Shown in pieces: positions 2,972-19,441 of a DNA stretch of 20,613 bases. The notes under the pieces were generated by a model. It ran no database searches. It worked only from the letters and a program-made list of their open reading frames with translations, and had not been told where the DNA came from. The DNA is from a bacterium (lineage in GTDB: Bacteria > BMS3Abin14): assembly GCA_029210545.1 (NCBI GenBank), contig JARGFV010000039.1:1-20613 (forward strand). Direction: 5' to 3'. The stretch's first letter is position 1. The number at the start of each line of letters is the position of its first letter. Made by a program: the position numbers and the translations under genes.

Positions 2972-4762
2972 ATGGCAGCAGCGCGTCTGGGCGAGATGCT
3001 CGTCAAAGCCAAGATCATTTCCGAGGATCAGCTCAAGCAGGCCCTCGAGGAGCAGAGCAAGTCCGGGGGCCGTCTGGGGTACAACCTGGCCAAGCTGAAC
3101 ATCCTGGAAGAGGCGGAGATAGTTTCCTTCCTTAGCAAACAGTACGGTGTCCCCTCCATCAACCTGGTGGATTTCGAGGTTGACCCGGGCATCATCAAGC
3201 TCATCCCGGGAAAGACGGCCAAGAAGTACCAGCTGGTGCCCATCAGCCGCACGGGAGGTACCCTGACCCTGGCCATGGCCGATCCCACCAATGTCTTTGC
3301 CCTTGACGACATCAAGTTCATGACCGGCTACAATGTGGAGCCGGTGGTGGCATCCGAGACCGCCATCGAGGACGCCATCATGAAGTACTACGAGAGCGGC
3401 GGGTTCGGGTCAGGGAAGGCCGACATCTCCGGGGCTGACTACTCCCTGGAAGGAATGGACGATGGCGGGTTCGCCGGTGAGATGGAGATCGGGGACATGG
3501 TGGATGTCGACGAGTTCGATACCCTGGTCAAGGGCGCCGTGGACGACGTGGAGGTTATCGAGGACACATCCGACGACGTGCTCAGCGGGGATGTGGAAGC
3601 CCCCATCATCAAGCTGGTCAACGGTCTTCTTGTGCGCGCCTACAAGATGAAGGTCAGCGATGTCCACATCGAACCGTACGAGAAGGTCATGCGGGTCCGT
3701 TACAGGCTGGACGGGGTGTGCAAAACCATGATGAATCTCCCTCTGAAGATCCGGAACGCCGTGCTCTCGAGGGTCAAGATCATGTCCAAGCTGGACATCG
3801 CCGAGCGCCGCCTGCCCCAGGACGGCAGGATCAAGATGAAGCTCGGGCGCCGGGCCGAGATCGATTTCCGTGTTTCGGTCCTTCCCACCCTGTTCGGAGA
3901 AAAGATCGTCCTCAGGCTCCTGGACAAGGCCAACCTGCAGCTGGACATGACCAAACTCGGCTTCGAGGAGGCGGCCCTGGCCGATTTCAAGGAGGCGATC
4001 CATAAACCGTTCGGGATGGTCCTGGTCACCGGCCCTACCGGAAGCGGCAAGACCACGACCCTTTACTCCGCTCTGGCTGACCTCAATACCGACGACGTGA
4101 ACATCATGACGGCCGAGGACCCGGTGGAGTTCAACCTCATGGGGATCAACCAGGTCCAGATGCACGACGAGATCGGTTTGAACTTCGCCGCCTCACTGCG
4201 TTCTTTCCTGAGGCAGGACCCCGACATCATCCTGGTTGGGGAGATCCGGGACTACGAGACGGCTGAGATCGGGATCAAGGCGGCCCTTACGGGCCACATG
4301 GTTCTTTCGACCCTCCACACAAACGACGCCCCGGCCACGATCAACCGTCTCCTCAACATGGGAGTGGAGCCCTTCCTGGTGGCCTCGGCGGTGATCATGG
4401 TCGTGGCACAGCGCCTTGCCCGCAAGGTATGCGAGAACTGCAAACAGGTGGTGGACGTGCCTATCGCCGCCCTCGTCGACGTAGGGTTCAAGGAGGAGGA
4501 GGCCGGGACCATCACCTGTTACAAGGGGGAAGGATGCAGCACCTGCGGAGGCACAGGGTATAAAGGGCGCGTGGCTCTTTACGAGGTCATGGTGGTCTCC
4601 GACCAGGTCAAGGAGATCATTCTCCAGGGGGGGACCACCTTTGAGATCAAGGCTGCGGCTATCGAGGGCGGCATGAAGTCCCTGCGCCAGAGCGGTCTTC
4701 AGAAGATCAAGGAAGGGGTGACCACCATCGAGGAGATCCTCAGGGTCACCTTCGGAGACTAG
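2972..4762 (+). CDS. pilB: type IV pilus assembly (extension) ATPase PilB
   Basis: Hexameric cytoplasmic ATPase that powers pilus extension at the PilC platform. Residues 1-140 form a GspE/MshEN-type N-terminal domain, beginning RLGEMLVKAKIISEDQL. An acidic linker (about 145-205) leads to the ATPase core: Walker A GPTGSGKT at 354-361, the Asp box around AEDPVEF (381-387), Walker B-like DPDIILVGEIRD (416-427) and the His box TGHMVLSTLHTN (440-451). Four cysteines, C487, C490, C522 and C525, form the tetracysteine zinc site typical of PilB/GspE and absent from PilT. The 596-residue length is normal. ATG 2972 is preceded by GGGGAG at 2957-2962. With pilT, pilC, pilS and pilR downstream, the pilus role is better supported than a type II secretion GspE. 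Confidence 0.96.
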   Translation: MAAARLGEMLVKAKIISEDQLKQALEEQSKSGGRLGYNLAKLNILEEAEIVSFLSKQYGVPSINLVDFEVDPGIIKLIPGKTAKKYQLVPISRTGGTLTLAMADPTNVFALDDIKFMTGYNVEPVVASETAIEDAIMKYYESGGFGSGKADISGADYSLEGMDDGGFAGEMEIGDMVDVDEFDTLVKGAVDDVEVIEDTSDDVLSGDVEAPIIKLVNGLLVRAYKMKVSDVHIEPYEKVMRVRYRLDGVCKTMMNLPLKIRNAVLSRVKIMSKLDIAERRLPQDGRIKMKLGRRAEIDFRVSVLPTLFGEKIVLRLLDKANLQLDMTKLGFEEAALADFKEAIHKPFGMVLVTGPTGSGKTTTLYSALADLNTDDVNIMTAEDPVEFNLMGINQVQMHDEIGLNFAASLRSFLRQDPDIILVGEIRDYETAEIGIKAALTGHMVLSTLHTNDAPATINRLLNMGVEPFLVASAVIMVVAQRLARKVCENCKQVVDVPIAALVDVGFKEEEAGTITCYKGEGCSTCGGTGYKGRVALYEVMVVSDQVKEIILQGGTTFEIKAAAIEGGMKSLRQSGLQKIKEGVTTIEEILRVTFGD

Positions 4763-4896
4763 AATCCAGGATACTCTCATAGAAAATCAACGGGGATCCC
4801 GGATTGTGTATGTAGACCAGACAAAAACAGATTAGACACCGAAAATCGGATTCTGGAAAATTAAATCAAAGGCACGGAATGTTTCCGGCCGAATAG

Positions 4897-4937
4897 CTTT
4901 TAGCAGCGCCCCGGATTTGCTGAGTCGCTGTTAAAAG
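4897..4937 (+). promoter_or_regulatory. hairpin in the pilT leader
   Basis: CTTTTAGCAGCG (4897-4908) and CGCTGTTAAAAG (4926-4937) are complementary at 11 of 12 positions, the exception being a G-T pair, around a 17-nt loop. The right arm ends at the GGGG of the pilT Shine-Dalgarno site (4937-4942), 9 bp before the ATG. Folding in mRNA could affect access to that site; this is inference. Confidence 0.4.
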
Positions 4938-4946
4938 GGGGAAAGC

Positions 4947-6074
4947 ATGAACAAACCCGATACCAGCGGAGTGCCACTGGGTGTTGACTCCCAGGAAGTG
5001 CCCGGCATCCACCAGTTGCTGAAGTTTATGGTGGACAACAAGGCCAGCGACCTGCACATCACCCCCGGAACGCCGCCGCAGCTGCGGATCGACGGCGCGT
5101 TAAGGCCTATCAACGTCCCCACCCTGGCGCCCCCGGACACCAAGAAGATCGCCTACAGCCTGCTCACGGATGCCCAGAAACACGTTTTCGAGGAGGACAA
5201 GGAACTTGACTTTTCCTTCGGGGTCAAGGGGCTGTCCCGGTTCCGCGCCAACGTTTTCCAGACGAGGGGATCTGTAGGGATCGCCATCCGGACCATCCCC
5301 TTCGAGATCATGTCCTTCGATAGCCTGGGTCTGCCCAAGGTGGTTGAAGAGCTCAACAAGCGGCCCAAGGGCCTCGTTCTGGTCACCGGGCCAACGGGAA
5401 GCGGCAAGTCCACGACCCTTGCCGCCATGGTCGACAGGATCAACTCCACCCGGCACGAGCACATCATCACCATCGAGGACCCCATCGAGTTCCTTCATCC
5501 CCACAAAAGCTGCGTGGTCAACCAGCGGGAGGTCGGGGCCGACACCTCCACCTTCAAGAGGGCCCTCAAGTCGATCCTCCGGCAGGACCCCGACATCGTC
5601 CTCATCGGCGAGATGCGGGATCTGGAGACCATCGAAGCGGCCCTTTCCGTGGCCGAGACGGGACACCTGGTGTTCGGCACCCTGCACACGAACAACTGTG
5701 TCCAGACCATCAACAGGATCCTGGACGTCTTTCCGCCCTACCAGCAGCCCCAGATCAGGGCCCAGCTGTCCTTCGTGCTGGAGGGAGTCCTGTCCCAGAC
5801 CCTGATTCCCAAAAAAGGCGGGGGACGCTGTCTTGCACTCGAAGTCATGGTGCCCAACGCGGCCATCAGGAACCTCATCCGCGAAGACAAGGTCCACCAG
5901 ATCTACTCCATCATGCAGGTGGGGCAGACCAAGTTCGGCATGCAAACCATGAACCAGTCCCTCCTGGAACTCTATCTCAAAGGGACGATCCCCGTGGAAG
6001 AGGTTCTGGGGAGGACCACCAACCCTGAAGAGATGCGTCAGATGCTGACGCAGGCCGGGGTCAGTATCGGGTAA
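4947..6074 (+). CDS. pilT: type IV pilus retraction ATPase PilT
   Basis: Cytoplasmic hexameric motor that depolymerises the pilus and drives twitching. The 375 residues start with a PAS-like N-terminal domain (SDLHITPGTPPQLRIDG, about 34-50). The RecA-like core has Walker A GPTGSGKS at 148-155, IEDPIEF near 176-182, DPDIVLIGEMRD (214-225) and a His-box region, TGHLVFGTLHTNN. The retraction-ATPase signature AIRNLIRE is at 316-323, which separates PilT from PilB. There are no zinc cysteine pairs. ATG 4947 follows GGGGGAAA at 4937-4944. It lies 184 bp after pilB in a spacer with a leader hairpin but no convincing promoter. Common variants of the His-box tail read LHTNSA..TIDRI; here it is LHTNNCVQTINRI. 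Confidence 0.96.
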   Translation: MNKPDTSGVPLGVDSQEVPGIHQLLKFMVDNKASDLHITPGTPPQLRIDGALRPINVPTLAPPDTKKIAYSLLTDAQKHVFEEDKELDFSFGVKGLSRFRANVFQTRGSVGIAIRTIPFEIMSFDSLGLPKVVEELNKRPKGLVLVTGPTGSGKSTTLAAMVDRINSTRHEHIITIEDPIEFLHPHKSCVVNQREVGADTSTFKRALKSILRQDPDIVLIGEMRDLETIEAALSVAETGHLVFGTLHTNNCVQTINRILDVFPPYQQPQIRAQLSFVLEGVLSQTLIPKKGGGRCLALEVMVPNAAIRNLIREDKVHQIYSIMQVGQTKFGMQTMNQSLLELYLKGTIPVEEVLGRTTNPEEMRQMLTQAGVSIG

Positions 6075-6086
6075 CGGTCCAGCTAC

Positions 6087-6161
6087 GAGGAAAGGGAAAA
6101 CGACGCTTTTCCCTTTCCGTTGAGCAAAAAGTCCCGCCCGGACTTTTCGCGATGCTATCAA
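6087..6161 (+). repeat. five-hairpin element, copy 3 (3' part only)
   Basis: Only stems D and E remain. D, GGAAAGGGAAAA / TTTTCCCTTTCC with loop CGACGC, is identical to copies 1 and 2. E is AAAAGTCC / GGACTTTT with a shorter loop (CGCCC). The end reads GATGCTATCAA where copy 2 has GACCCTGTCAA. It fills most of the pilT-pilC spacer and stops 22 bp before the pilC start, so it is probably transcribed as part of the pilC leader. Stems A to C are absent. Confidence 0.85.
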
Positions 6162-6182
6162 GATCAATCGGGGAGGAAGTCC

Positions 6183-7391
6183 ATGCCTGAGTTCAATTGG
6201 GAAGCCAAGACCGCCAAAGGTGAAGTCAAGAAGGGCACCATGGAGGCCGTGAGCCCGGACGCCGTTCACGCGGCGCTGAGGCGCCAGGGACTGAACCCTT
6301 CCAAGGTCAAGGCCAAACCCAAGGAGATCAAGATCAGCATCCCGGGCTTCAAGGAGAAGGTCAAGGAGCGGGACATCGTCATCTTTACCCGCCAGTTCGC
6401 CACGATGATCGATGCCGGGCTTCCCCTGGTCCAGTGCCTCGAGATCCTTTCCAGCCAGGCCGAAAACAAGACCCTGGGCAAAGCGCTGGATACCGTCCAG
6501 AGTGACGTTGAGGGCGGTTCGGCCTACGCCGAGGCTCTCGGGCGCCACCCCAAGATCTTCGATGAACTTTATGTGAACATGGTTGCCGCCGGGGAGGCCG
6601 GGGGTATCCTGGACACCATCCTTTCCAGGCTGGCCGCCTATATTGAAAAGGCGATGGCCCTCAAGAAGAAGGTCAAGTCAGCCATGGTATACCCCATCAC
6701 CATCCTGATTGTGGCCGTTGGCGTGGTGGCCCTCCTCATGGTGTTCGTTATCCCCAAGTTCGCCGACATGTTCACCGGCATGGGCGGTGAGCTGCCCGCG
6801 TTGACCCAGCTCGTCATCGACATGAGCAATTTCGCGTCGAGCTACAAGATGCTCATCTTCATCGGCGGTTTTTTCGTCTTCAGCGCCCTCTTCAAGAGGT
6901 ATTACGCTACCGTCAGCGGGAAACGGCGCATGGACGGTGTTTTCCTGAGAGCCCCCATCGTAGGCCCCCTCATCCGTAAGGTGGCGGTGGCAAAGTTCAC
7001 ACGGACCCTGGGAACCATGCTCTCTTCCGGAGTGCCCCTTTTAGACGCCCTGGATATCTGTGCACGGACGGCGGGGAACAAGGTCGTGGAGGAGGCTGTG
7101 TACTTCACCCGGGACAGCATCAGCGAGGGCAAGACCATTGCTGAACCGCTGGAAGAGTCGGGGGTCTTTCCCCCCATGGTGGTACAGATGATCAGCGTCG
7201 GGGAGGCCACCGGCGCCCTGGACGCCATGCTCAGCAAGATCGCGGACTTTTACGACGAAGAGGTGGACACCGCGGTCGAGGCCCTCACATCCCTGATGGA
7301 GCCGATAATGATGGTGTTCCTGGGCGGGGCCATCGGGTTCGTGGTCATCGCCATGTACCTCCCGATCTTCAAGATGGCCACCCTCGGGTAG
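6183..7391 (+). CDS. pilC: type IV pilus inner-membrane platform protein PilC
   Basis: Polytopic inner-membrane protein that couples the PilB and PilT motors to pilin insertion and removal. Two GspF/T2SF repeats are evident. The first (about 65-190) begins IVIFTRQFATMIDAGLPL with VAAGEAGGILD. The second (about 268-390) begins VAKFTRTLGTMLSSGVPL with ISVGEATGALD. Hydrophobic segments lie near 169-193, 222-238 and 372-395. ATG 6183 (402 aa) is preferred: GGGGAGGAAG lies just upstream, and the product begins MPEFNWEAKTAKGEVKKG as family members do. The frame stays open upstream to 6120, but that part lies inside hairpin element copy 3 and is not family-like. Confidence 0.96.
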   Translation: MPEFNWEAKTAKGEVKKGTMEAVSPDAVHAALRRQGLNPSKVKAKPKEIKISIPGFKEKVKERDIVIFTRQFATMIDAGLPLVQCLEILSSQAENKTLGKALDTVQSDVEGGSAYAEALGRHPKIFDELYVNMVAAGEAGGILDTILSRLAAYIEKAMALKKKVKSAMVYPITILIVAVGVVALLMVFVIPKFADMFTGMGGELPALTQLVIDMSNFASSYKMLIFIGGFFVFSALFKRYYATVSGKRRMDGVFLRAPIVGPLIRKVAVAKFTRTLGTMLSSGVPLLDALDICARTAGNKVVEEAVYFTRDSISEGKTIAEPLEESGVFPPMVVQMISVGEATGALDAMLSKIADFYDEEVDTAVEALTSLMEPIMMVFLGGAIGFVVIAMYLPIFKMATLG

Positions 7392-7410
7392 CCCCGGCTC
7401 CCCCACCTTG

Positions 7411-9081
7411 ATGTCACCGGGTACCGGCAGTCCCCTGTTCAGACACTCCCAGGAACTGCCCCTGCTCCTGAAGATCCTCATGGTCTTCAGGGTTGCTACC
7501 GTCACCCTCTTCCTGGGCGGTGCGGTGGTCATCCAGCTCAAGGGCAGCCAGGCGCTGTTCTTCGCTCCCCTCTTCACCATCTACCTGCTCGTCGTCGGCG
7601 TCTACCTCCTGACCATCCTCTTCGCCACCATTTTCAACCAGGTGGAGAACCTGCCCCGGTTCGCCGCTTACCAGGTGGGCGTCGATCTCCTCATTTACAC
7701 CTTCGTGGTTTTCCTCACGGGAGGGCACAGCAGCCCCTTCCCCTTCCTTTTCCTGTTCTCCATCCTGTGGGCCGCCCTGGCCCTTCATGGCGGGGGCTAC
7801 TGGACCGCCTCGGTTTCCTCCATCCTTTACGGCGGTGTCGTGGACCTGCAGTACTACAGTCTGGTCATGCCCCCCCAGGCGGCGGAACTGGCCGACCTGC
7901 TCCTGGTCAACCCGTGGGACATCATGGGGCGGGTATTCATGCACATCACCGCCTTCTTCGCGGTGGCTTTCCTCGGACACATGATCAGCCACCGCTACCG
8001 CGCGGCCCGGGAGGAACTTTCAGAAAAAACGGTGGACCTGGAAAAGCTCAGGACCCTCAGCGATGTCGTGTTCGAGAGCATCACCAGCGGCATCGCTGTC
8101 CTGGACAGGGAAGGCGCCATCCGGTCCATGAACTCGGCAGCTGAAAAGATGCTGAGCCTGGAAGGCAGGATGACCCGCACGGGAAGGCGGCCGAAGGACG
8201 TATTCTCGGGGATCCCCATCCAGGACCTGCTGCAAAGGGCGTCCGCGGGGAGGGTCGACCGGTGGGAGGGGAGTTTCACCGATGAGGAGGATGAGGACCG
8301 TGTTCTGGGCCTTTCCATCTCCCCCCTCAAGGAACCTGAGAAGGGGTTCGTCGTTATCTTCCAGGATCTGACCGAACTCCGGGAGATGGAGGGCAAGCTC
8401 AGGGTGTCGGATAAACTTTCCGCTATTGGAAGGATGGCCGCCAGCATTGCCCACGAGGTCCGGAACCCCCTGGCCTCCATGAGTGGATCGATCCAGATCC
8501 TGAAAAAGGACCTGGACCTTCACGGTGAGGATCTGCGCCTCATGGATATCGTGCTCAAGGAGACACAGCGTCTCAACGACCTTTTAGGGAACTTCCTGGA
8601 TTACGCCCGCCCACCCTCCCCACGGTTCGAGGATGTCGATCTGAGGGATATCGTCTCAGACACGGTGAACTTCCTGGACCCGGTGGTCACCGCGGGCGAG
8701 ATTTCCCTTGAAACCGACCTCCCTGCCGAGCCGGTGATCCTGTCCCTTGACGTTTCCCAGATGCGGCAGATCCTCATGAACCTTGTAAAGAACGCGGCCG
8801 ACGCCGTCTCCAGGGGAGGCCGGATCACGGTGTCCGTGGTCAGGGACGATAACGGGGGCGGCAGCGTCCTGGCCGTGAGCGACGACGGACCGGGCATCCC
8901 CGACGAGGTCCTGCCCGAGATCTTCGAGCCGTTCAAGACCACCAAGGATCACGGCACCGGGCTCGGGCTTGCCATCGTCTACCAGTTGGTGCAGATTCAT
9001 AAGGGTACGATCGATGTGCGCACCGAAGAAGGCAGGGGAACCACCGTGTCCGTTAACCTGCCGCCGTGGAGGTCCCATTGA
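7411..9081 (+). CDS. pilS: membrane sensor histidine kinase PilS
   Basis: Partner kinase of PilR; in known systems PilS senses inner-membrane pilin and controls PilR phosphorylation. The N-terminal ~190 residues contain about six hydrophobic helices with little periplasmic sequence, as in PilS. A PAS-like domain (about 215-320) is followed by HisKA with the H-box ASIAHEVRNPLASM (phospho-acceptor H348), the N-box NLVKNAADAV and G-boxes DDGPGIP and GTGLGLAI. The length is about 556 residues. The start is uncertain: adjacent TTG (7408) and ATG (7411) codons lie 16-19 bp after the pilC stop and no clear Shine-Dalgarno site is seen, so coupling to pilC translation is possible. It overlaps pilR by 4 bp. 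Confidence 0.93.
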   Translation: MSPGTGSPLFRHSQELPLLLKILMVFRVATVTLFLGGAVVIQLKGSQALFFAPLFTIYLLVVGVYLLTILFATIFNQVENLPRFAAYQVGVDLLIYTFVVFLTGGHSSPFPFLFLFSILWAALALHGGGYWTASVSSILYGGVVDLQYYSLVMPPQAAELADLLLVNPWDIMGRVFMHITAFFAVAFLGHMISHRYRAAREELSEKTVDLEKLRTLSDVVFESITSGIAVLDREGAIRSMNSAAEKMLSLEGRMTRTGRRPKDVFSGIPIQDLLQRASAGRVDRWEGSFTDEEDEDRVLGLSISPLKEPEKGFVVIFQDLTELREMEGKLRVSDKLSAIGRMAASIAHEVRNPLASMSGSIQILKKDLDLHGEDLRLMDIVLKETQRLNDLLGNFLDYARPPSPRFEDVDLRDIVSDTVNFLDPVVTAGEISLETDLPAEPVILSLDVSQMRQILMNLVKNAADAVSRGGRITVSVVRDDNGGGSVLAVSDDGPGIPDEVLPEIFEPFKTTKDHGTGLGLAIVYQLVQIHKGTIDVRTEEGRGTTVSVNLPPWRSH

Positions 9082-10469
9082 GCCTGAAGGGCAAGGGGAA
9101 GATCCTCATCGTGGACGACGAGCGCTCCATGAGGGAGATGCTGGAGATCTTCCTCAGGCGTGAGGGGTATGCCGTTGCCGGCAGCGCCAACGCGGCCGGC
9201 GCCCTGGCGGCCATGGCCGGCGAAGACTCGTTCGATCTGGTTGTCAGCGACATCAACATGCCTGGCTTGAGCGGCCTGGACCTGCTCAGGGAGGTCCGAA
9301 AAAGTGACTCCGGTATCCCGGTGATCATGATCACCGCTTACGGCTCCCCCGACTCGGCCGTGGAGGCCATGAAACTGGGAGCCGCCGACTACATCACCAA
9401 GCCGTTCCGCATCGAGGAGATCAAGAGCCGGATAAGCGCCGTCATCGAGAGGCGAAAGCTGGCCGAGGAGAACGTTCAGCTCCACCGCCTGCTCCAGGAC
9501 CAGTTCAGCTTCGAGAACATCGTGGGCCGGAGCCCGGGGATGAAGCGGATGTTCGAGGTCATCGAGCGCGTCAGCCCCATGGACAGCACCGTGGTGATCA
9601 CCGGCGCGAGCGGGACAGGCAAGGAACTCATCGCAAGGGCCCTGCACCACCACGGCGCCGGCCGGAAGGGGCCCTTCGTTTCGGTCAACTGCGGGGCCCT
9701 GGTGGAAACCCTCCTGGAAAGCGAGCTGTTCGGGCACAGGAAGGGCTCGTTCACCGGGGCCGACTCCAACCGGCAGGGGCTTTTCGAGACAGCCAGCGGC
9801 GGGACCCTGTTCCTGGACGAGATCACCGAGACCTCCAGCGCCCTGCAGGTCAAGCTGCTGCGGGCCATCCAGGAACGGGAGGTGGTTCCCGTGGGGGGGA
9901 CCTTACCGGTCAAGGTGGACGCGAGGATCATCGTCGCGACCAACAGGGATCTTGCGGGGGAGGTGAAGAAGGGGAATTTCCGTGAGGACCTGTATTACCG
10001 TCTGAACGTCATCCATATCCAGGTCCCGGCACTCAGGGAAAGGCGCGAGGACATCCCGCTCCTGATGGAGCACTTTTTCAAGCGTCTTGCCACGAGGCAG
10101 GGACGGACCCTGGGGTCCGTCGCCCCCGAGGCGATGCGGCATCTCATGGGATACGGTTACCCGGGTAACGTGAGGGAACTGGAAAATATCGTGGAAAGAG
10201 CTGTCGCACTGGCTACAGGGGATGAGCTGACGCCTGATCTCCTTCCTGAGGAGGTCCTGCGGGCGCCGGCTGTCCGGTCCCCGGAGGCTGCGGCCATGGA
10301 CGGGGAAGGGGACCTGGACGCCCGGGTGGCCGATTACGAGAGGCAGCTCATCCTTTCGGCACTCCGGCAGACGGGAGGCAACCGGACCAGGGCGGCCGAG
10401 TTCCTGGGAATCACCTTCCGGTCTCTTCGGTACCGCCTCAAGAAGCTGGGAATGGCGGAGGATGACTGA
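9078..10469 (+). CDS. pilR: sigma54-dependent response regulator PilR
   Basis: NtrC-family activator that normally turns on pilA from a sigma54 promoter. It has a receiver at 7-120 (D13/D14, phospho-acceptor D58, T86, K108), an AAA+ domain at about 145-375 with Walker A GASGTGKE (176-183), Walker B region GGTLFLDEI (241-249) and NVRELEN (364-370), and a Fis-type helix-turn-helix at about 420-458 (GNRTRAAEFLGITFRSLRYRL). The sigma54-contact loop reads GSFTGA (223-228) rather than the usual GAFTGA. I chose TTG 9078, which overlaps the pilS stop as TTGA and has GGAGG at 9068-9072; GTG 9066 is an alternative adding four residues. The pair order pilS-pilR is standard, but no pilA follows. Confidence 0.95.
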   Translation: MSLKGKGKILIVDDERSMREMLEIFLRREGYAVAGSANAAGALAAMAGEDSFDLVVSDINMPGLSGLDLLREVRKSDSGIPVIMITAYGSPDSAVEAMKLGAADYITKPFRIEEIKSRISAVIERRKLAEENVQLHRLLQDQFSFENIVGRSPGMKRMFEVIERVSPMDSTVVITGASGTGKELIARALHHHGAGRKGPFVSVNCGALVETLLESELFGHRKGSFTGADSNRQGLFETASGGTLFLDEITETSSALQVKLLRAIQEREVVPVGGTLPVKVDARIIVATNRDLAGEVKKGNFREDLYYRLNVIHIQVPALRERREDIPLLMEHFFKRLATRQGRTLGSVAPEAMRHLMGYGYPGNVRELENIVERAVALATGDELTPDLLPEEVLRAPAVRSPEAAAMDGEGDLDARVADYERQLILSALRQTGGNRTRAAEFLGITFRSLRYRLKKLGMAEDD

Positions 10470-11132: not shown

Positions 11133-11387
11133 TTCTCCGGCATTACGCCATCCGAAAAAAGTTTAATTATTATAGGGAGTTACAACATTTATGGACGCTG
11201 TTATATCTTGACACCATATAGGCCCCATGTTAATCATAAAAAGATGTACAGGTGCGGTAAAATCGGACCTCGCAAGTGTTTGTCCAGAGAAATCAGTGCG
11301 CCCCCTGACAAGGCGCATGGAAAGATCAGACCCCGGGATCACTTCACCCGGTAGCCTTTGAATTTGATGAGAAAAGGAGCGTGCCGG
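11133..11387 (+). promoter_or_regulatory. AT-rich leader of the AMIN operon, possible promoter
   Basis: This stretch is clearly more AT-rich than the flanking genes and contains TTGACA (11208-11213), a consensus -35. The sequence 17 bp downstream (TAATCA) is a weak -10. It directly precedes the first gene of the four-gene block and follows the repeat cluster, so it is the natural place for the operon promoter. I found no sigma54 GG-N10-GC site in it. Confidence 0.3.
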
Positions 11388-13193
11388 ATGTCCTTTTGGC
11401 GGACAGTCTGTCTTACCGTCCTAACTGCCTGTTTTCTGACCACCTTCACCGTCCGGAGCGCCGAGAGCATCACCGTCAAGCCGGCTGCCTTCGACCGCAT
11501 CGAAGCAAAGGTGCCGCAGGAGGTTATGGCCGGTGAGGAGTTCGAGGTCCAGGTCACTTTCATGGACCGGTTCGGAAACACCATGCCTGAGGGCTGGAAA
11601 CCGGAAGCGCCGGTGAGCCTCACGGTTTCCAAGCCTGCCAGCGTCCTGCCGCCCCTTCTCACCCCGGATAACTACATGCCCGGTTTCAGGTTCCGTGTTT
11701 CAACCGAAAAGATGGGCGGACTCACCATTTTCCTGAAAGACAGTGCGGGTGAGGTCTTGCAGCAGTGGGAGTTGAATATAAGTTCGGGCCGACCTGTCAA
11801 ACTCCTTGCCGATATTCCATCCAGAGCTGAGGTCGGGCAGACGGTCACCTTGACCTTCCAGGCCGTGGATATGCACGGCAACGTGGCTTACGGATATTCG
11901 CCGGAAAGTTCGTCCCTTACCGTTGAAAACCCGGCCCTTCGGGTCGCCGGAAGTGTCAGATCTCTCGGGAAAGGGAATTTCGAGATCCCTGTTGAACTCC
12001 GTTCTGCCGGAGAGCATGCCGTCAGCATCAAGGACCGGAGGAAAAACCTGTCGGGGGATGCCGGCGTCGTCGCCATTGTGCCCGCAGCCCTGGATTCATT
12101 TGAGATCAGCGCGGGTCCGAAGGTTACTGCCGGTGAGAGACTGCCGGTAACCATAAAGGCCATGGACAGGTATGGAAACCTGGTCGCCGACTACGATGCC
12201 CGGTACAAGGGTGTCAGGCTTTACTCGGACGGGGGAGATATCGCCCCTGACCTTGTTACGCCGGCCTCCTTTGACGGCGGGGTGGCTCAAATCCAGATCG
12301 AGATGCGGGCCAGCGGTGATTATTCTATCCAGGTATCCGAGATCCAGAGCAACATCTCGGGAAAGCTCAACCTGACGGTGGTCGCCGGGCAGGTTGAAAA
12401 GGTCCTGGTCAAGACCCCCGATTCGGCGGTCGCAGGCGAACCGTTCGAGATCACTCTCGAGGCGCAGGACCGGTTCGGTAACATCGCCGATGTGCCGACG
12501 GGAAAGGCGGTGTACCTGGAGTCGACCGGTACTGTACCGCTGAGGCCTGACAGGGTGGATGGCGCCCTTTTTACCGGTGGTACCGCTAAGGTCAAGGTCG
12601 TTTACGAAAAAGCCGAGTCTTTCGAGATCAGGGCCTCGATACGGGCGGGGAGTGCCGGTGCCGCCCTGGCCCCGGCTCCCGATCCACGTAAAAAGGAAAA
12701 GGCGGCTGCGGAAAGGGCCAGGGAGGATGCGGTCCAGGCACGCAGGGAAGCGAGGCTCAGGGAAAAGAGGAGTTCTGAAAAGACGCCCGAACCTGCTCCT
12801 GCCCTGAAACCGGCCGTCCCTGCCAAACCTGCTCCTGCTCCGAAACCGGCCGTCCCTGCCAAACCTCTGCGCCCCGGTGTTCTTGATGGACTGGAGGTAA
12901 AGGAGATAAAGGACAGCGCCCAGGTCGTGTTTTCCACTAACGGGATGACCGACTACAACGTCACCACCTCGGCCAAGCTTTCCAGGAAATGGATCGATAT
13001 CGAATTTCCCGACATCAACCCGGAACTGCCTGAACGTATTGCGGGCGGAGAGAACATCGTCGGAGAGGTCTACGTCGAGGAGCTTGGCAACGATCGTGGC
13101 GTTAAGATCTCCATTGAGATCCTGCCGGTCAGGATCGGGTACGACGTTTATCAGGAGGGCAACTCGATCGTCCTCAAGATAACCCGGCAATAA
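11388..13193 (+). CDS. exported protein with four Ig-like repeats and a C-terminal AMIN-like domain
   Basis: The product is predicted to act in the periplasm or at the outer envelope. A signal peptide covers about residues 1-25 (hydrophobic core, then VRSAES); VLTAC at 11-15 could alternatively be a lipobox. Four ~100-residue beta-type repeats each carry a D-x-[FYH]-G-N turn, at 60-64, 161-165, 260-264 and 361-365, preceded by AGE-x-F/L motifs. A charged, Ala-rich then Pro-rich linker (about 429-497) leads to a C-terminal domain (about 498-601) resembling AMIN domains of PilQ and amidases (LDGLEVKEI...WIDIEFPDI). ATG 11388 is chosen because AGGAG is at 11375-11379; TTG 11358 lacks a site. The gene is followed after 22 bp by the receiver/coiled-coil gene. 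It is not a secretin: no secretin domain follows. Confidence 0.75.
   Translation: MSFWRTVCLTVLTACFLTTFTVRSAESITVKPAAFDRIEAKVPQEVMAGEEFEVQVTFMDRFGNTMPEGWKPEAPVSLTVSKPASVLPPLLTPDNYMPGFRFRVSTEKMGGLTIFLKDSAGEVLQQWELNISSGRPVKLLADIPSRAEVGQTVTLTFQAVDMHGNVAYGYSPESSSLTVENPALRVAGSVRSLGKGNFEIPVELRSAGEHAVSIKDRRKNLSGDAGVVAIVPAALDSFEISAGPKVTAGERLPVTIKAMDRYGNLVADYDARYKGVRLYSDGGDIAPDLVTPASFDGGVAQIQIEMRASGDYSIQVSEIQSNISGKLNLTVVAGQVEKVLVKTPDSAVAGEPFEITLEAQDRFGNIADVPTGKAVYLESTGTVPLRPDRVDGALFTGGTAKVKVVYEKAESFEIRASIRAGSAGAALAPAPDPRKKEKAAAERAREDAVQARREARLREKRSSEKTPEPAPALKPAVPAKPAPAPKPAVPAKPLRPGVLDGLEVKEIKDSAQVVFSTNGMTDYNVTTSAKLSRKWIDIEFPDINPELPERIAGGENIVGEVYVEELGNDRGVKISIEILPVRIGYDVYQEGNSIVLKITRQ
12792..12863 (+). 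repeat. two 36-bp tandem repeats in the Pro-rich linker
   Basis: Two adjacent 36-bp units (12792-12827 and 12828-12863) encode PAPALKPAVPAK and PAPAPKPAVPAK. They differ at only two bases. The in-frame unit length means copy-number change would alter linker length without breaking the frame. Confidence 0.85.
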
Positions 13194-13215: not shown

Positions 13216-16200
13216 ATGTCTGACCTGCGATTCCTCGTCATCGAGGACGACCTTTTCTATCAAACCTATGTGAACGATCTCTTCGCCGGGACCGGCATAG
13301 ATATCGTCAACGCGAACGATGGAGAGGCCGGGCTTGCGATGGCTGTTGCCGAAAAGCCGGACCTCATCATAACCGACATCGAGATCCCCAAGATCCAGGG
13401 TTTCGTCCTTTTAAAAAACCTCCGGGAAAACCCGGAGACAAAGGATATCCCCGTCATCATGATGTCGGGGAAGGTGGAAAAAGATCTTCTGGAGCGTCAT
13501 TCGAGGCTCAGTACACACGCCGACGGATACCTGTTGAAACCGTTCAGCGGCCAGGATCTTCTCGAACTCATTAAAGGGATCATGGGCTTTGATTTGCAGT
13601 CCGGGGCTGCCGGTCCCGGAGAGGGCTCCTCCGGAGGAGATCATCACGAAAGAAGTACTGATCCGGCGGTCGTAACCGGCCAGCTGAATGGCCAGACAGG
13701 CGGCGAGGCCGCGGCACCAGCGGGCACCGCAGCGTCGGAAACTCCGGCACAAAAGATTCCGGTGGATAAAGCCGCAGGCTCCATGCTGGCCCTTGTGGTG
13801 GACGATTCACAGTATATCCTCGATGTCACTAAAGACTTTCTTAATGAGATGGGGGCCGAGGTGATCGTCGCCTTGGACGGCGAATCCGGTTTCAAACAGG
13901 CGGTGGACACGGTTCCTGACGTCATCCTTCTCGACGTCCAGATGCCAGGGGTCAACGGTTTTGTCGTTTGCGAGAAACTGAAAAAGGATCCCGCTACGGC
14001 CGGAATCCCGGTTATCCTCATGTCGGCTGTCGTGGACGACGAATCTTTCCAGCGGCATTCCAGACTTCGATATCACGCCGACGCCTATCTCCAGAAACCG
14101 TTCATGAAATCGGAACTTCAGGAACTCGTCCTTGGTTTCACCTCGTCGAAGATTACCAGCGCCGCGGGTGTCGAGAGCAAAAAAGGGTTCCTTGTCCCGT
14201 CGGAAGATGAGTGGGCGGCTACGGAAGCCCGACAGCCTGAAAGAGATCGGGAGATACACAGGAAGCTCGTGGAGGAGGTCAAAAAAGCACGGGAGGCCAT
14301 CGAGGCCGCGAAGGAACGTGAGCGGCAGATGTCAGAGGAGCTCGAGGGGGTCCGCCGGGAAAGAGATGGTTTCGAGGAACAGCTGTACCGCGTAAAAGGA
14401 TCCGTCGAGAGTAAGGAAAAGGACCTGACCGATAAGCTGACCCTGACAGCCCGCCGCTACGAGGAATCACGGCTTGAGGTCGAGAGCCTCACGGAAAAGC
14501 TCCGCGTGTTATCGGCCGGTCAGGATGTGACGAGGGATGACACTCAAACAGCCCGCGATCTCCCCGCACTGGAAGGCCAGCTCGCGGAGTTGAAGCGCAG
14601 CCTCGATTCGAGTATCGCTGAAAACGAAAAGCTCAAAGCCCGTCTTGCCGATACCGTAACTGCCGACAAGCTCGCGGCATTGGAGGTTCAGGCCGCGGAA
14701 TACAAGAACAACCTCGATCTGAGTCTCACCGAGAACACACAACTGCGGGCCCATCTCGCTGACACCAGGGAGGTGGATTCACTTAAGGGACAGGTTGATG
14801 ATCTCAGCTCCCGTCTGGAAAGCGCGGCTGCCAGGGCCGATGAACTGGCTGTGCTGAATAAACAGTTAAAGAAGGAGATGGAAGGAGGGAGCGTCGAAGA
14901 CGAGGAGTCGACCCGGCGTCTGCGAGATGCCATGGACCGGGCCCAACAGGCGGACCAGGCGAAAGCCGCCCTGGAAAGAGACCTTGCGGCTGCTGTAGCC
15001 GCCAAAAACGAGATCGAGGAACAGGTTAAAACCCTCCTGGCCGATAACAGGAAAAGCAAGCGGGGCGAAACCGGTCAGGAAAAGCTGGAAACTCTCAGAA
15101 ATGAGAACAAGGGGTTGATGGTCCGCATCTCGGAGGCCGAATCCAAGACCAAGTGGCTTGCCGAAGTGGAAAAGCAGCTTGAAACCGTGCAGAAGGAAGC
15201 CGACGGACTCCGGCAGGAGCTGGAAAGCGCATCCAGGGAAGACGAAAGCGCTGAGCTGGTAACCCTCCGTGAGAAACTGGCTGCCACGATCAGGAGAGCC
15301 GAGAAACTGGAAGCGGATAATACTGAACTTGCCGAGTCCATGTCGGTCGTGGACGAGATCAAGGCCGAAAGGGACGAACTGTCCGAAAAAACCGCCGATC
15401 TCGAGAAGCAGCTGGTCGAGAGCATGAAACTGGCTGCCGAAGAGGCCGGGTCGAGGAAAGCTGCGGCCGAGCGTCTGGAAGGCCTGCTGCAGGAAAAACA
15501 GCTCCTTGAGGCGGACCTCGAGGAGGCCCGGAAGCTGATGGACAAGTCCGACGAGGACGACGACCGTGTCGCTGCGCTCGAGGCGGAACTTGCGGCGGCA
15601 AACAAGCTCAGGGCCCAGAGCGAAAAACAGGTAAAAGAGCTTCGTTCATCGGCAGTCCAGGGCGATGCGAACGCCGGCAGGATCTCGGAACTGGAGGAAT
15701 CCCGGCAGGAATTGGCCGACAGGCTGGGAGAGGTCCAGGATGAACGGGACGAACTGGCAGAAAAGGTAGCTGAACTTTCAGCTGCCCCCTTTAAAGCCGC
15801 GGGAGAAGAAGGCGGGTCGTCCGGCTTCACGGACGACCGGCTCGACCATCTCGAGAAGATACTCAGCAAGACCGTGGCCGAGGCGCAAGCCGCTCTCATG
15901 GAACAGAAGGACCGTGAACTGGCCCTGGAGAGGAGCGTGGAGTCTCTCATGCACTCCCTGGACGAGGAAAGGACCTTTTTCAGGGAGGAGAGGGATAAAT
16001 GGCGGGAACGGGAAAATGAGCTCAAGGACGCCTTCGAAAACGCTCTGAGAGAAAGCCGTCGCATCATGGGTGAGGAGGCCGCGCGTCTTTACCCCATGCA
16101 CATCCCCCGGCAGGCCCGCCCCCTGGAAGTTGTCACGGGTATGAGGAAATACGGAGTCACAGCGGCTCTCGCGGCGGCGGCAGTGGTTCTTTTCCTGTCC

Positions 16201-16905
16201 GGACATTTCATTCTCTCCAGATTTGATGCTCCCCAGGAGAAAACGGCCGTTTCTTCCGGGGGGCAGCAGACCCAACCCGTGACCCGGACGCCGGAACCTC
16301 AGGAAACATCCCGACCGCCCGTACCTTACCTGTCTTCATCAGGTCCCGGTGACAGCTACGAGGAGTTGTGGAGGAGGAACACGGTTCAGTCGGTCTCCGA
16401 GGATATGATGCTCCAGGCCACTTTTCACACGAAGCAGGAGCTCGAGGCGGCCATCAGGTACACAGCCTCCAAGGAGGGGTGGACCAACGAGAGGGTTGCA
16501 AAAGCCATGGGGGACCTGGCCAGCACCTACGATCTGGAGGAGTCCTTCTACGTCACCATTTTCAGCAAGAACCTCAAGGGAGGCTACCCCGGATACGCCG
16601 ACAACTTCGAAAGGCACATCTCCCTGCGAGACGGAACGGGTCATGAAGCCCGGGCTCAACTGCCGGCGGAACTGGAGCGCAGCAAGTTTATCTCAAGCCG
16701 CGTTTCGGCAGCGGGCAAGGAGATGAATCCCGTTTTTCTTTACGAGGTCGGTCTCACGGTCGCCTTCCCGAGAAAAGAGCTCGGATCGTCCCCGCAGGGA
16801 CTTCAGCTGGTCCTGTACGATGTCGGTGCCGTCCCCATGAGAGTCCTCACGTGGGACATGGGTGCCGTCAGTTCCCTTGACCCCGGCCATGAAACAAGCC
16901 CTTGA
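13216..16905 (+). CDS. double-receiver coiled-coil transmembrane protein (FrzS/AglZ-like architecture)
   Basis: I know no exact family for this 1229-residue protein. Receiver 1 (about 4-124) has E10/D11/D12, phospho-acceptor D54, S84 and K108. Receiver 2 (about 190-308) has D196/D197, D240, S270 and K294. Both therefore look competent for phosphorylation. A Gly/Ala/Ser linker joins them. Residues about 345-960 are a long charged coiled coil with an internal 37-residue duplication (449-485 and 486-522). A hydrophobic helix (about 979-1001) is followed by a Thr/Pro-rich stretch and a ~180-residue C-terminal domain I do not recognise, predicted extracytoplasmic. Receivers followed by a coiled coil recall Myxococcus FrzS and AglZ, which localise to poles and control motility, but those lack this membrane anchor. 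ATG 13216 has only a weak site (GAGGCGG). It sits between the AMIN gene and a TPR gene. Confidence 0.85.
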   Translation: MSDLRFLVIEDDLFYQTYVNDLFAGTGIDIVNANDGEAGLAMAVAEKPDLIITDIEIPKIQGFVLLKNLRENPETKDIPVIMMSGKVEKDLLERHSRLSTHADGYLLKPFSGQDLLELIKGIMGFDLQSGAAGPGEGSSGGDHHERSTDPAVVTGQLNGQTGGEAAAPAGTAASETPAQKIPVDKAAGSMLALVVDDSQYILDVTKDFLNEMGAEVIVALDGESGFKQAVDTVPDVILLDVQMPGVNGFVVCEKLKKDPATAGIPVILMSAVVDDESFQRHSRLRYHADAYLQKPFMKSELQELVLGFTSSKITSAAGVESKKGFLVPSEDEWAATEARQPERDREIHRKLVEEVKKAREAIEAAKERERQMSEELEGVRRERDGFEEQLYRVKGSVESKEKDLTDKLTLTARRYEESRLEVESLTEKLRVLSAGQDVTRDDTQTARDLPALEGQLAELKRSLDSSIAENEKLKARLADTVTADKLAALEVQAAEYKNNLDLSLTENTQLRAHLADTREVDSLKGQVDDLSSRLESAAARADELAVLNKQLKKEMEGGSVEDEESTRRLRDAMDRAQQADQAKAALERDLAAAVAAKNEIEEQVKTLLADNRKSKRGETGQEKLETLRNENKGLMVRISEAESKTKWLAEVEKQLETVQKEADGLRQELESASREDESAELVTLREKLAATIRRAEKLEADNTELAESMSVVDEIKAERDELSEKTADLEKQLVESMKLAAEEAGSRKAAAERLEGLLQEKQLLEADLEEARKLMDKSDEDDDRVAALEAELAAANKLRAQSEKQVKELRSSAVQGDANAGRISELEESRQELADRLGEVQDERDELAEKVAELSAAPFKAAGEEGGSSGFTDDRLDHLEKILSKTVAEAQAALMEQKDRELALERSVESLMHSLDEERTFFREERDKWRERENELKDAFENALRESRRIMGEEAARLYPMHIPRQARPLEVVTGMRKYGVTAALAAAAVVLFLSGHFILSRFDAPQEKTAVSSGGQQTQPVTRTPEPQETSRPPVPYLSSSGPGDSYEELWRRNTVQSVSEDMMLQATFHTKQELEAAIRYTASKEGWTNERVAKAMGDLASTYDLEESFYVTIFSKNLKGGYPGYADNFERHISLRDGTGHEARAQLPAELERSKFISSRVSAAGKEMNPVFLYEVGLTVAFPRKELGSSPQGLQLVLYDVGAVPMRVLTWDMGAVSSLDPGHETSP

Positions 16906-16917
16906 AAGGAGAAGTTC

Positions 16918-17466
16918 ATGAAGGTCATCATGCGGCTGCTGCTCATTTGTCTCGCCATCGGTGTCGGTTTTCCCCAGGCGGCTTATCCGGGCGGCGACAA
17001 GGGAAAGGACCCCTACGAAGTCGGGGAAAAATATTTCGCCCAGAACGATCATCGACGGGCCATGACCTATTACAGGAAGGCACTTGGGCAAAACGACGTC
17101 AGGGCCTACTACCGGATGGGGATCATTTTCGAGGATTCGGGAAAGGACAGGGACGCTCTCAGGCATTATCGGCGCTACCTGGAACTTGGAAAACCTGACG
17201 CTCGATGGAACGACGCCGCGGCGAGGGTGAACCGACTCGAAAAGAAGCTCACGGCAGAATCGGCAAGGTCCTCAGTGCTCCTGGAGAGAGGTAAGTCCCT
17301 TTACGCGGAGGGGAAGTACCGTGATGCCGAAAAGGTTCTTCTGGATGCTGCCAGGGAGGACGGTAACAACCCCGAGATCCACTATTATCTTGGAGAGGTG
17401 TACATGGCGTTAGAGGAGTACACCAGGGCGACCACGGAATACAATAAGGCTAAGGAACTTTATTAA
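16918..17466 (+). CDS. exported TPR-repeat protein
   Basis: This small 182-residue protein has an N-terminal signal peptide (MRLLLICLAIGVGFPQAA, cleavage probably near residue 22). The rest is TPR-like helical repeats: one pair at about 32-90 (GEKYFAQNDHRRAMTYYRKAL, then YYRMGIIFEDSGKDRDALRHY) and a second at about 118-180 (GKSLYAEGKYRDAEKVLLDAA, then HYYLGEVYMALEEYTRATTEY). Such proteins are scaffolds; in T4P systems the outer-membrane TPR pilotin PilF/Tgl assembles the secretin, but there is no lipobox here and I cannot assign that role. ATG 16918 has AAAGGAGAA at 16905-16913 and lies 12 bp after the receiver/coiled-coil gene, indicating one operon. Confidence 0.8.
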   Translation: MKVIMRLLLICLAIGVGFPQAAYPGGDKGKDPYEVGEKYFAQNDHRRAMTYYRKALGQNDVRAYYRMGIIFEDSGKDRDALRHYRRYLELGKPDARWNDAAARVNRLEKKLTAESARSSVLLERGKSLYAEGKYRDAEKVLLDAAREDGNNPEIHYYLGEVYMALEEYTRATTEYNKAKELY

Positions 17467-17573: not shown

Positions 17574-17584
17574 CTGGTTTTTTG

Positions 17585-19441
17585 ATGGACCAGATAAATT
17601 ATCTTCTTGCACAATTGAGGCGGCAGCCAAACAGGCCTGACCTCCATAACTCCCTGGGGCGCCTGTACCAGCAGCGGGGCGATGTGGGGGACGCTTCCAA
17701 GCATTACCTGGCAGCCGCCAAGATCTTTTCTACCCCTGACAGCCCTTCCAGGAACCTGAACAAGGCCATAGCCATCCTCCGTAAGATGGTAAGGGATTTC
17801 CCGATCCACCATGATTCCTACTACCTGCTGGCCGAGATCCTCGGTGAAATGGATAACCAGGACGAGGTTATTGAGATATACAGCGCCCTTTCGGAGATCT
17901 ACCGGAAAGAGGGCAAACACCTTATGGCGGTATCGGTCTTCGACAAGGTCATCAGTTCCATTCCGGATGACCAGAATGTCTGGATCCGCTTCGCCAACCT
18001 CAACCGGGACGCAGGGATGCCGTTCCACGCCGCGCAGGCCTTTGTCAGGGCAGCCTCTATAGGTCTCGAAACCCGAAAAGGTGAGTTGCCTGCCGGGCTG
18101 GTCCTGGAGGCTCTGCGCCTGGACCCGGAGAACGCGGAAGCCAGGGAACTGATCAAGACACTGGCCGGAAGAGGCCAGACAGGAGCGCAGCAGGAAGAGG
18201 GAATCCTCCTCCTTGCGGAGGAGATCGACAGGGGAGGACAGTTCGAGGCGGCCCTGGACCTGCTGGACCTCCTCAAGGGAACCTCGGTCCAGGACAGGGC
18301 CAAAGAGATGGCGCTACTGATCAGACGTCACTCCGGTATTGATGACAGTTACCAGGACGGTCAGATCGTACGTTCGCCTGAAGTGTCAAGGTTTGCCGGC
18401 ATGAAGGTCCTCGTCGTTGACGATGAGCCGGAGATCGTCCTTCTCCTTGAACAGATCCTCGATTCGGAGGGTTTCAGCGTCCTTACAGCACGTGACGGCC
18501 AGGAAGGCCTCAATATCTACCTCAGGGAGCGTCCGCCCCTGGTCGTCAGCGACGCAATGCTTCCCAAACTCCACGGGTTCGAGCTGTGCGCCAGGATCAA
18601 GGAAGAATCGGACTACACTGCCAGGGTGATGATACTCACGGCGGTATACAAGAAGTATAAATACAAGGGAAAGGTGCAGGCCGAGTACCATGTTGACGAG
18701 TATCTGGATAAACCGTTCCAGATAACCGATTTCCTCCAGGTTTTCCGCAAGATGGCGGAAGGTGCCGTCGAGTACACAGGACCCGGAACTGGCGAGGAAG
18801 AAAAGCCTGTTCAGCCGTCCACCGGGGAGTTGACGGTCCTGGTGGGCAGCGGCATGGACGCGGAGCTTTCAGCCAAAGTGACGGCTTTTTGCGAACGACG
18901 GTCTTTTAAACCTGTCATCACCCACGATTACCGAGCCTTTTTCGATCATCTCAAGAAGGATGCTCCCGACATCCTCCTTATCCGGGACGATATGCCGGGG
19001 ATCGATCCCTTTATGGCCGGCCATATCGTCAGGTCCTGCATGGATCTCGACCACATGACAATGGTCCTCGTTGCCAGGGACAGATCCAGGCTGGATGTGC
19101 CGCAGGTCGAGTTTGACCACCGGGTGGTCGCTCCCATCGACAACAAGGTCCTCGACAACATCATAAACCTGCACAGGTCGGCCAGGGGACAGCAGGAAAA
19201 AACCGTTGTCCGTGAAGCAGGGGTGGACGAAAGCCGCATCGAATCCCTCGTCAGGAGCAAGGTCGCGCAAATCCTCAAAAGTCACAACCAGCTCGAGGAG
19301 TATTACAGCACAAAGGTCCGTGAGCTCGAGGAGGAACTTCGTCAGCTGAAGGAGAAGGGCGGGGCCGAGGTTGTCGGCGGTGAGGGTGTCCCCGATGAGA
19401 CAGGGGGATCCGCCGGAGAGGTGAAGGCCGGCGAAGAATAG
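17585..19441 (+). CDS. TPR response regulator with intact and degenerate receivers
   Basis: The 618-residue protein is predicted cytoplasmic (no signal peptide or membrane segment). Residues 1-260 are TPR-like helices. A receiver at about 272-392 has D279/D280, phospho-acceptor D323 (VVSDAMLPKLHGFE), T352 and K376 and should be functional. A second receiver-like fold (about 415-525) is degenerate: the acidic pair is replaced (LVGSGM), Arg occupies the phospho-acceptor position before DDMPG, and the conserved Lys is replaced in VVAPID. A charged coiled coil (about 548-590) and an acidic Gly/Glu tail end the protein. No DNA-binding or enzymatic output domain is visible, so output is probably by protein contact. 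ATG 17585 is preferred over the adjacent TTG 17582; neither has a strong Shine-Dalgarno site. Confidence 0.85.
   Translation: MDQINYLLAQLRRQPNRPDLHNSLGRLYQQRGDVGDASKHYLAAAKIFSTPDSPSRNLNKAIAILRKMVRDFPIHHDSYYLLAEILGEMDNQDEVIEIYSALSEIYRKEGKHLMAVSVFDKVISSIPDDQNVWIRFANLNRDAGMPFHAAQAFVRAASIGLETRKGELPAGLVLEALRLDPENAEARELIKTLAGRGQTGAQQEEGILLLAEEIDRGGQFEAALDLLDLLKGTSVQDRAKEMALLIRRHSGIDDSYQDGQIVRSPEVSRFAGMKVLVVDDEPEIVLLLEQILDSEGFSVLTARDGQEGLNIYLRERPPLVVSDAMLPKLHGFELCARIKEESDYTARVMILTAVYKKYKYKGKVQAEYHVDEYLDKPFQITDFLQVFRKMAEGAVEYTGPGTGEEEKPVQPSTGELTVLVGSGMDAELSAKVTAFCERRSFKPVITHDYRAFFDHLKKDAPDILLIRDDMPGIDPFMAGHIVRSCMDLDHMTMVLVARDRSRLDVPQVEFDHRVVAPIDNKVLDNIINLHRSARGQQEKTVVREAGVDESRIESLVRSKVAQILKSHNQLEEYYSTKVRELEEELRQLKEKGGAEVVGGEGVPDETGGSAGEVKAGEE

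Follow-up and report, generated by a model that had tools for sequence, protein, structure and literature searches.

The stretch of DNA analysed here (the window; 20,613 nucleotides, positions 1 to 20,613 of contig JARGFV010000039.1 in assembly GCA_029210545.1, GTDB lineage Bacteria; BMS3Abin14) contains an intact, ATG-initiated open reading frame (ORF) at 13216-16905 of the plus strand. Its product, a protein of 1229 amino acids (aa) referred to below as the scaffold, carries two receivers followed by a coiled-coil rod, a single membrane helix and an exported domain. The gene and the parts of its product are the following:

13216..16905, plus strand: scaffold protein, receiver-receiver-coiled coil-membrane-exported domain, 1229 aa
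13225..13584, plus strand: receiver 1, residues 4-123, with D11, D12, D54, S84 and K108 and the FrzS-type pair His95/Tyr105
13786..14139, plus strand: receiver 2, residues 191-308, with D196, D197, D240, S270 and K294 and the FrzS-type pair His281/Tyr291
14203..15825, plus strand: coiled-coil rod, residues 330-870, with low sequence conservation and a length that differs between orthologues
15826..16155, plus strand: conserved juxtamembrane segment, residues 871-980, 42-65% identical across all compared orthologues
16156..16215, plus strand: single membrane helix, residues 981-1000, predicted N-in/C-out
16342..16902, plus strand: exported domain, residues 1043-1229, a predicted beta-sandwich, present in 6 of 11 family orthologues and in one other phylum

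Layout and conservation of the scaffold

A Pfam scan of the 1229 residues returned two Response_reg domains (PF00072, E 1.3e-41) and nothing else, no family being found above the cut-off for the rod or the exported domain. The rod region contains 3 prolines in 624 aa, is 42% charged and shows a heptad periodicity (z = 9.3 relative to shuffled sequences) that recurs in all orthologues, with z values of 5.4-12.6. The sole hydrophobic segment of the protein lies at residues 981-999 (Kyte-Doolittle (KD) value 2.09) and is flanked by a charge of +2 on its N side and 0 on its C side. The corresponding helix (981-1000) is present in all 11 orthologues and, since its N-side flank is the more positive in every one of them, an N-in/C-out orientation is strongly predicted. 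A first-pass annotation of this DNA had described an inside-to-outside layout with a membrane segment near 979-1001. The topology check placed one helix at 981-1000, predicted N-in/C-out, and the combination of two receivers, a heptad rod, one C-terminal helix and a conserved exported domain was borne out by Pfam, periodicity, hydrophobicity and alignment.

Conservation along the chain is uneven. Compared with the three nearest orthologues, identity reaches 67-76% in the receivers, 62-65% in the juxtamembrane segment and 73-74% in residues 1043-1221, and falls to 29-30% in the rod. Across the orthologues, the receivers, juxtamembrane segment and exported domain are 42-76% identical and the rod 12-30%, while the stretch from the second receiver to the membrane spans 366-659 aa. 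Such conserved ends joined by a variable rod suggest that the scaffold acts as a spacer-tether.

The exported part had been described beforehand as unrecognised, which still holds: for residues 1043-1229, Pfam, PDB sequence and profile searches yielded no known family, yet the domain is strongly conserved in the three orthologues mentioned above. An AlphaFold2 model built from three sequences (predicted local distance difference test (pLDDT) 65, predicted template modelling score (pTM) 0.67) shows helices packed against the strands of a sandwich, so that the domain is weakly modelled as a beta-sandwich. The best Foldseek match of this model was 3fjv, of unknown function (E 7e-4, template modelling score (TM) 0.52), followed by the DUF4426 structure 3uc2. 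With VIA-align, where Z 8 was taken as the level of a clear likeness, the model scored Z 7.8 against 3fjv (root-mean-square deviation (rmsd) 4.4, 158 residues aligned) and Z 7.2 against 3uc2 (rmsd 3.5, 117 aligned), and these likenesses may reflect just a common sandwich.

In both receivers, the acidic pair, the phospho-acceptor Asp, the Ser and the Lys (D11/D12/D54/S84/K108 and D196/D197/D240/S270/K294) are invariant among nine aligned orthologues, and two further, partly truncated orthologues keep all those residues that can be read. Together with the Pfam matches, this agrees with the earlier suggestion of two phosphorylatable-looking N-terminal receivers, and both are strongly predicted to accept phosphate. 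The receivers also share a second feature, a His exactly ten residues ahead of a Tyr (H95/Y105 and H281/Y291), which is kept in most orthologues, with receiver 1 of genome G006 as the exception. In FrzS of Myxococcus, a hydrogen bond joins the equivalent His92 to the switch Tyr102, and both residues are individually required for motility and for localisation at the leading pole (PMC1974792). The His-x9-Tyr pattern occurs in none of the 22 other receivers examined in this genome (20, plus PilR and the receiver protein encoded downstream of the scaffold), one of the 20, from L002, being only partly matched by the search pattern. The parallel with FrzS and AglZ drawn by the first-pass annotation is thereby upheld. 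Nevertheless, the receivers show no special overall sequence similarity to FrzS (2gkg is outranked by RpaA and PleD), and the pair is therefore better regarded as a shared functional feature than as proof of common descent.

A gene cassette recurring in two phyla

In the window, the scaffold gene belongs to a tight cassette in which an AMIN-like gene is followed after 22 base pairs (bp) by the scaffold, after 12 bp by the gene of an exported tetratricopeptide repeat (TPR) protein (TPR182), after 115 bp by a TPR-receiver gene and after 41 bp by yicC. The neighbouring features are these:

11358..13193, plus strand: exported protein that has Ig-like repeats and, at its C-terminus, an AMIN-like domain; 22 bp upstream of the scaffold
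12864..13190, plus strand: AMIN-like domain of that protein (model pLDDT 60; Foldseek query-normalised TM score (TMq) 0.61-0.64)
16918..17466, plus strand: exported TPR protein (TPR182), 182 aa, 12 bp downstream of the scaffold
17582..19441, plus strand: cytoplasmic TPR-receiver protein, 619 aa

The receiver-receiver-rod-membrane core is encoded by 11 of the 12 genomes of the bacterial family, the twelfth being 73% complete, and six of them (G000, G003, G005, G008, G010 and G011) also have the exported domain. Profile searches with that domain covered two largely overlapping samples of about 385 genomes each, and a wide spread was rejected because they returned the family and one outside genome alone. 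This genome, G158, belongs to another phylum and gave the single convincing outside match (E 5e-34), with weak matches in G356 and G269. About 374 genomes outside the family were also searched with a profile spanning the juxtamembrane segment and the helix, and none gave a convincing match (best E 0.006). The G158 protein has two receiver-like domains, a rod, a membrane helix and the exported domain, and its gene stands between the end of an Ig/AMIN-type protein gene and that of a 1033-aa exported TPR protein, so that a second phylum shows the same succession of AMIN, scaffold and exported TPR genes. The G158 gene shows one reading-frame change within the rod (L068, about 5900-6000), either an assembly error or a mutation or broken gene in this metagenome-assembled genome (MAG).

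An AMIN-like gene lies upstream of the scaffold in G000, G003, G008, G007, G001 and G158. Its product is a long form bearing Ig-like repeats in the genomes whose scaffold includes the exported domain (G000, G003, G008, G158) and a short one in those whose scaffold lacks it (G001, G007), a correlation that is suggestive and rests on six genomes. In a Foldseek search, the single-sequence model of the AMIN-like domain matched AMIN chains of AmiC and PilQ at TMq 0.61-0.64, all other rows remaining below 0.5; by E-value, however, small heat-shock proteins outrank the AMIN chains. The partner may resemble PilQ and AmiC in the predicted fold of its C-terminal domain, but it has neither a secretin nor an amidase part, carries Ig-like repeats and shows no family match at the sequence level. 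AMIN domains are known to bind septal or polar peptidoglycan and to position PilQ and AmiC (PMC10653833).

The AmiC-like fold predicted for this partner would suit a scaffold for cell division or peptidoglycan remodelling, in which the AMIN-like and exported domains would recognise the septal wall and the receivers would couple division or wall synthesis to a phosphorelay. In G008, the same strand also carries, upstream, genes for an Amidase_3 protein and a PBP1a-type protein, on a contig broken by runs of Ns. We consider such a role unlikely, as the conserved neighbours in the other genomes include no division or wall gene and the scaffold is confined, among the sampled genomes, to one family and one other phylum. 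Long-range gene order in G008 is unreliable, since the single contig of this MAG is joined by N runs, which also interrupt the AMIN and TPR182 genes neighbouring the scaffold.

The TPR-receiver gene follows the scaffold in 10 of the 11 family genomes that have the latter (window included), standing next to it, or next but one after TPR182, in nine relatives; it was not seen in G008, with its N-broken contig. The protein itself (17582-19441) combines a canonical receiver with a charged stretch at its C-terminus, and is 44-62% identical in the nine relatives, always near the scaffold.

In the relatives, the cassette is flanked by rplM-rpsI-argC on one side and on the other by yicC, followed in several genomes by ORFs of gmk and rpoZ size and by relA; the identity of relA and of the ribosomal neighbours comes from Pfam matches in single genomes, that of gmk and rpoZ from position and size alone. 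In G004, cheR, a methyl-accepting chemotaxis protein (MCP) gene, cheA and cheD directly precede the scaffold (L028/L069) and replace argC-rpsI-rplM. This arrangement, and the 1-3 CheA proteins found in every family genome, could be taken to mean that the scaffold is a membrane-held phosphate sink or the output of a chemosensory pathway, its receivers being phosphorylated by CheA. However, the che genes adjoin the scaffold in this one genome only, G009 of the same genus has upstream ORFs of rpsI and argC size instead, and CheA is common across motile bacteria, all of which makes this explanation very improbable. No RNA families or tRNA were found in the window.

A possible membrane-anchored scaffold and its precedents

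The scaffold combines two known designs, that of the pole-marking receiver-rod proteins of Myxococcus and that of the membrane-spanning PodJ of Caulobacter. Like FrzS and AglZ of Myxococcus xanthus, it starts with a receiver domain and continues into a long coiled coil, and the likeness to FrzS extends to the His/Tyr pair and to a likely TPR partner, the FrzS receiver binding the TPRs of SgmX (PMC11580455). It differs from both, which are soluble, in having two receivers rather than one, a membrane helix and an exported domain, which are described for neither, and a pilus link that is not conserved. It also differs from FrzS in its intact phosphorylation sites D54 and D240, where FrzS has Ala (PMC4546325). 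Tandem receivers are found in FrzZ, a polar protein of a chemosensory pathway in M. xanthus (PMC4546325), but FrzZ is a two-receiver fusion without rod, membrane helix or exported domain. PodJ of Caulobacter crescentus shares the cytoplasmic coiled coils, the one membrane helix and the C-terminal periplasmic part (PMC8980812), which in the scaffold are predicted from sequence; no receivers have been described for PodJ, and the likeness proposed here is one of layout. The periplasmic side of PodJ unites TPR and peptidoglycan-binding domains within one chain (PMC8980812), whereas here these functions would lie in separate exported proteins of the cassette.

The conserved ends, the variable rod and the PodJ precedent favour a membrane-anchored, phosphorylation-tunable scaffold of polarity or of the septum. 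Specifically, the explanation we prefer, tentatively and at somewhat less than an even chance, is a FrzS/PodJ-like scaffold anchored in the inner membrane, probably at the pole or septum, through which phospho-signals would be coupled to an AMIN/TPR module associated with peptidoglycan. The protein would be tail-anchored in the inner membrane, with its two FrzS-type yet phosphorylatable receivers at the tip of a long dimeric rod, where they would dock cytoplasmic partners, the likeliest being the neighbouring TPR-receiver protein. Phosphorylation of the receivers by a histidine kinase or CheA would alter this docking, while the rod and the conserved juxtamembrane segment would keep this assembly membrane-bound. 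On its outer side, the exported domain would bind the co-encoded AMIN-like and TPR proteins, and these would attach the scaffold to peptidoglycan of a particular kind, probably that of the septum or pole. In this way the module would determine the site at which an envelope machine is assembled or works. The docking steps are suggested by gene order and fold, phosphorylation and peptidoglycan attachment are likewise inferred, and the pole or septum position is proposed by analogy. The conserved cassette points to candidate partners of the scaffold.

Several observations weigh against this proposal. The exported domain was modelled with modest confidence (pLDDT 65), and the AMIN assignment depends on a model of pLDDT 60, with no Pfam match for that domain and a hhalign profile-comparison probability of 7.6. 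In G001, G004, G006, G007 and G009 the chain stops about 37-67 residues past the helix, without the exported domain, and G004, G006 and G009 also lack the adjoining AMIN gene. Finally, both G158 receivers are without the phospho-Asp, having Ser and Gly in its place (read by eye), which means that the architecture does not require phosphorylation. This replacement of both acceptors, and the fact that FrzS functions without phosphorylation (PMC1974792), fit a static tether between cytoplasm and wall whose receivers serve as docking modules only. Such a tether is nevertheless quite improbable: in the family orthologues, both receivers keep every catalytic residue that can be read, a constancy not easily accounted for unless phosphotransfer takes place.

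The preferred scaffold has a bolder extension, a phosphorylation-controlled trans-envelope polarity module in which cytoplasmic phospho-signals would travel outward by way of the exported domain and reach the co-encoded, wall-bound AMIN and TPR proteins. This inside-to-outside two-component output, encoded by a cassette present in two phyla, appears rather doubtful. Response regulators usually act in the cytoplasm; if the extension were true, a receiver protein with its own membrane anchor and exported domain would offer a direct physical route from phosphorelay to wall.

Relation to the type IV pilus genes

The window also carries pilB-T-C-S-R at 2972-10469, upstream of the cassette and parted from it by 888 bp, within which a promoter-like site (11208-11237) was noted on weak evidence. 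The first-pass annotation had placed the scaffold beside a pilus locus and suggested that it could serve the pilus machine; the first part stands for the window, but the cassette lies elsewhere in the relatives with readable flanks, and co-occurrence with pil genes is not conserved.

A dedicated type IV pilus regulator, carrying a phospho-signal from the receivers through the membrane to periplasmic pilus parts, would suit this adjacency, the resemblance of the receivers to FrzS (itself a pilus regulator), the presence of a type IVa pilus in most family genomes and the PilQ-like AMIN fold modelled for the upstream partner. Yet in these relatives no pil genes adjoin the cassette, which lies instead among rplM-rpsI-argC and yicC-relA. 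The pilBTCSR cluster is conserved in G004 and G007, with a different gene after pilR in G004, and in G001 pilB-pilT are followed by other genes; in G008, pilB is about 10 kb from the scaffold, on the contig joined by Ns. Moreover, G003, which is 99% complete and has the full architecture, yielded neither a pilB orthologue at 85-90% identity nor pilM or pilQ above the cut-off, and G158 has no PilB above the cut-off. Pilus linkage as a conserved feature was consequently rejected: the flanks of the relatives and the gene content of G003 indicate that the adjacency is particular to this genome and that the scaffold need not occur together with a type IVa pilus, and a dedicated pilus regulator is distinctly unlikely. 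As G003 retains a second PilB/PilT-like set, accompanied by a GspD-like secretin, the scaffold may have a role with some filament system.

Second PilB/PilT-like sets near a GspD-like secretin occur in most family genomes (G000:C17, G003:C8 and counterparts). The N-terminal part of the PilB encoded in the window (2972-4762) matches NF053729, the cyclic di-GMP-binding motif of MshE type (63.4 bits against a cut-off of 38), and this pilus motor may itself be under cyclic di-GMP control.

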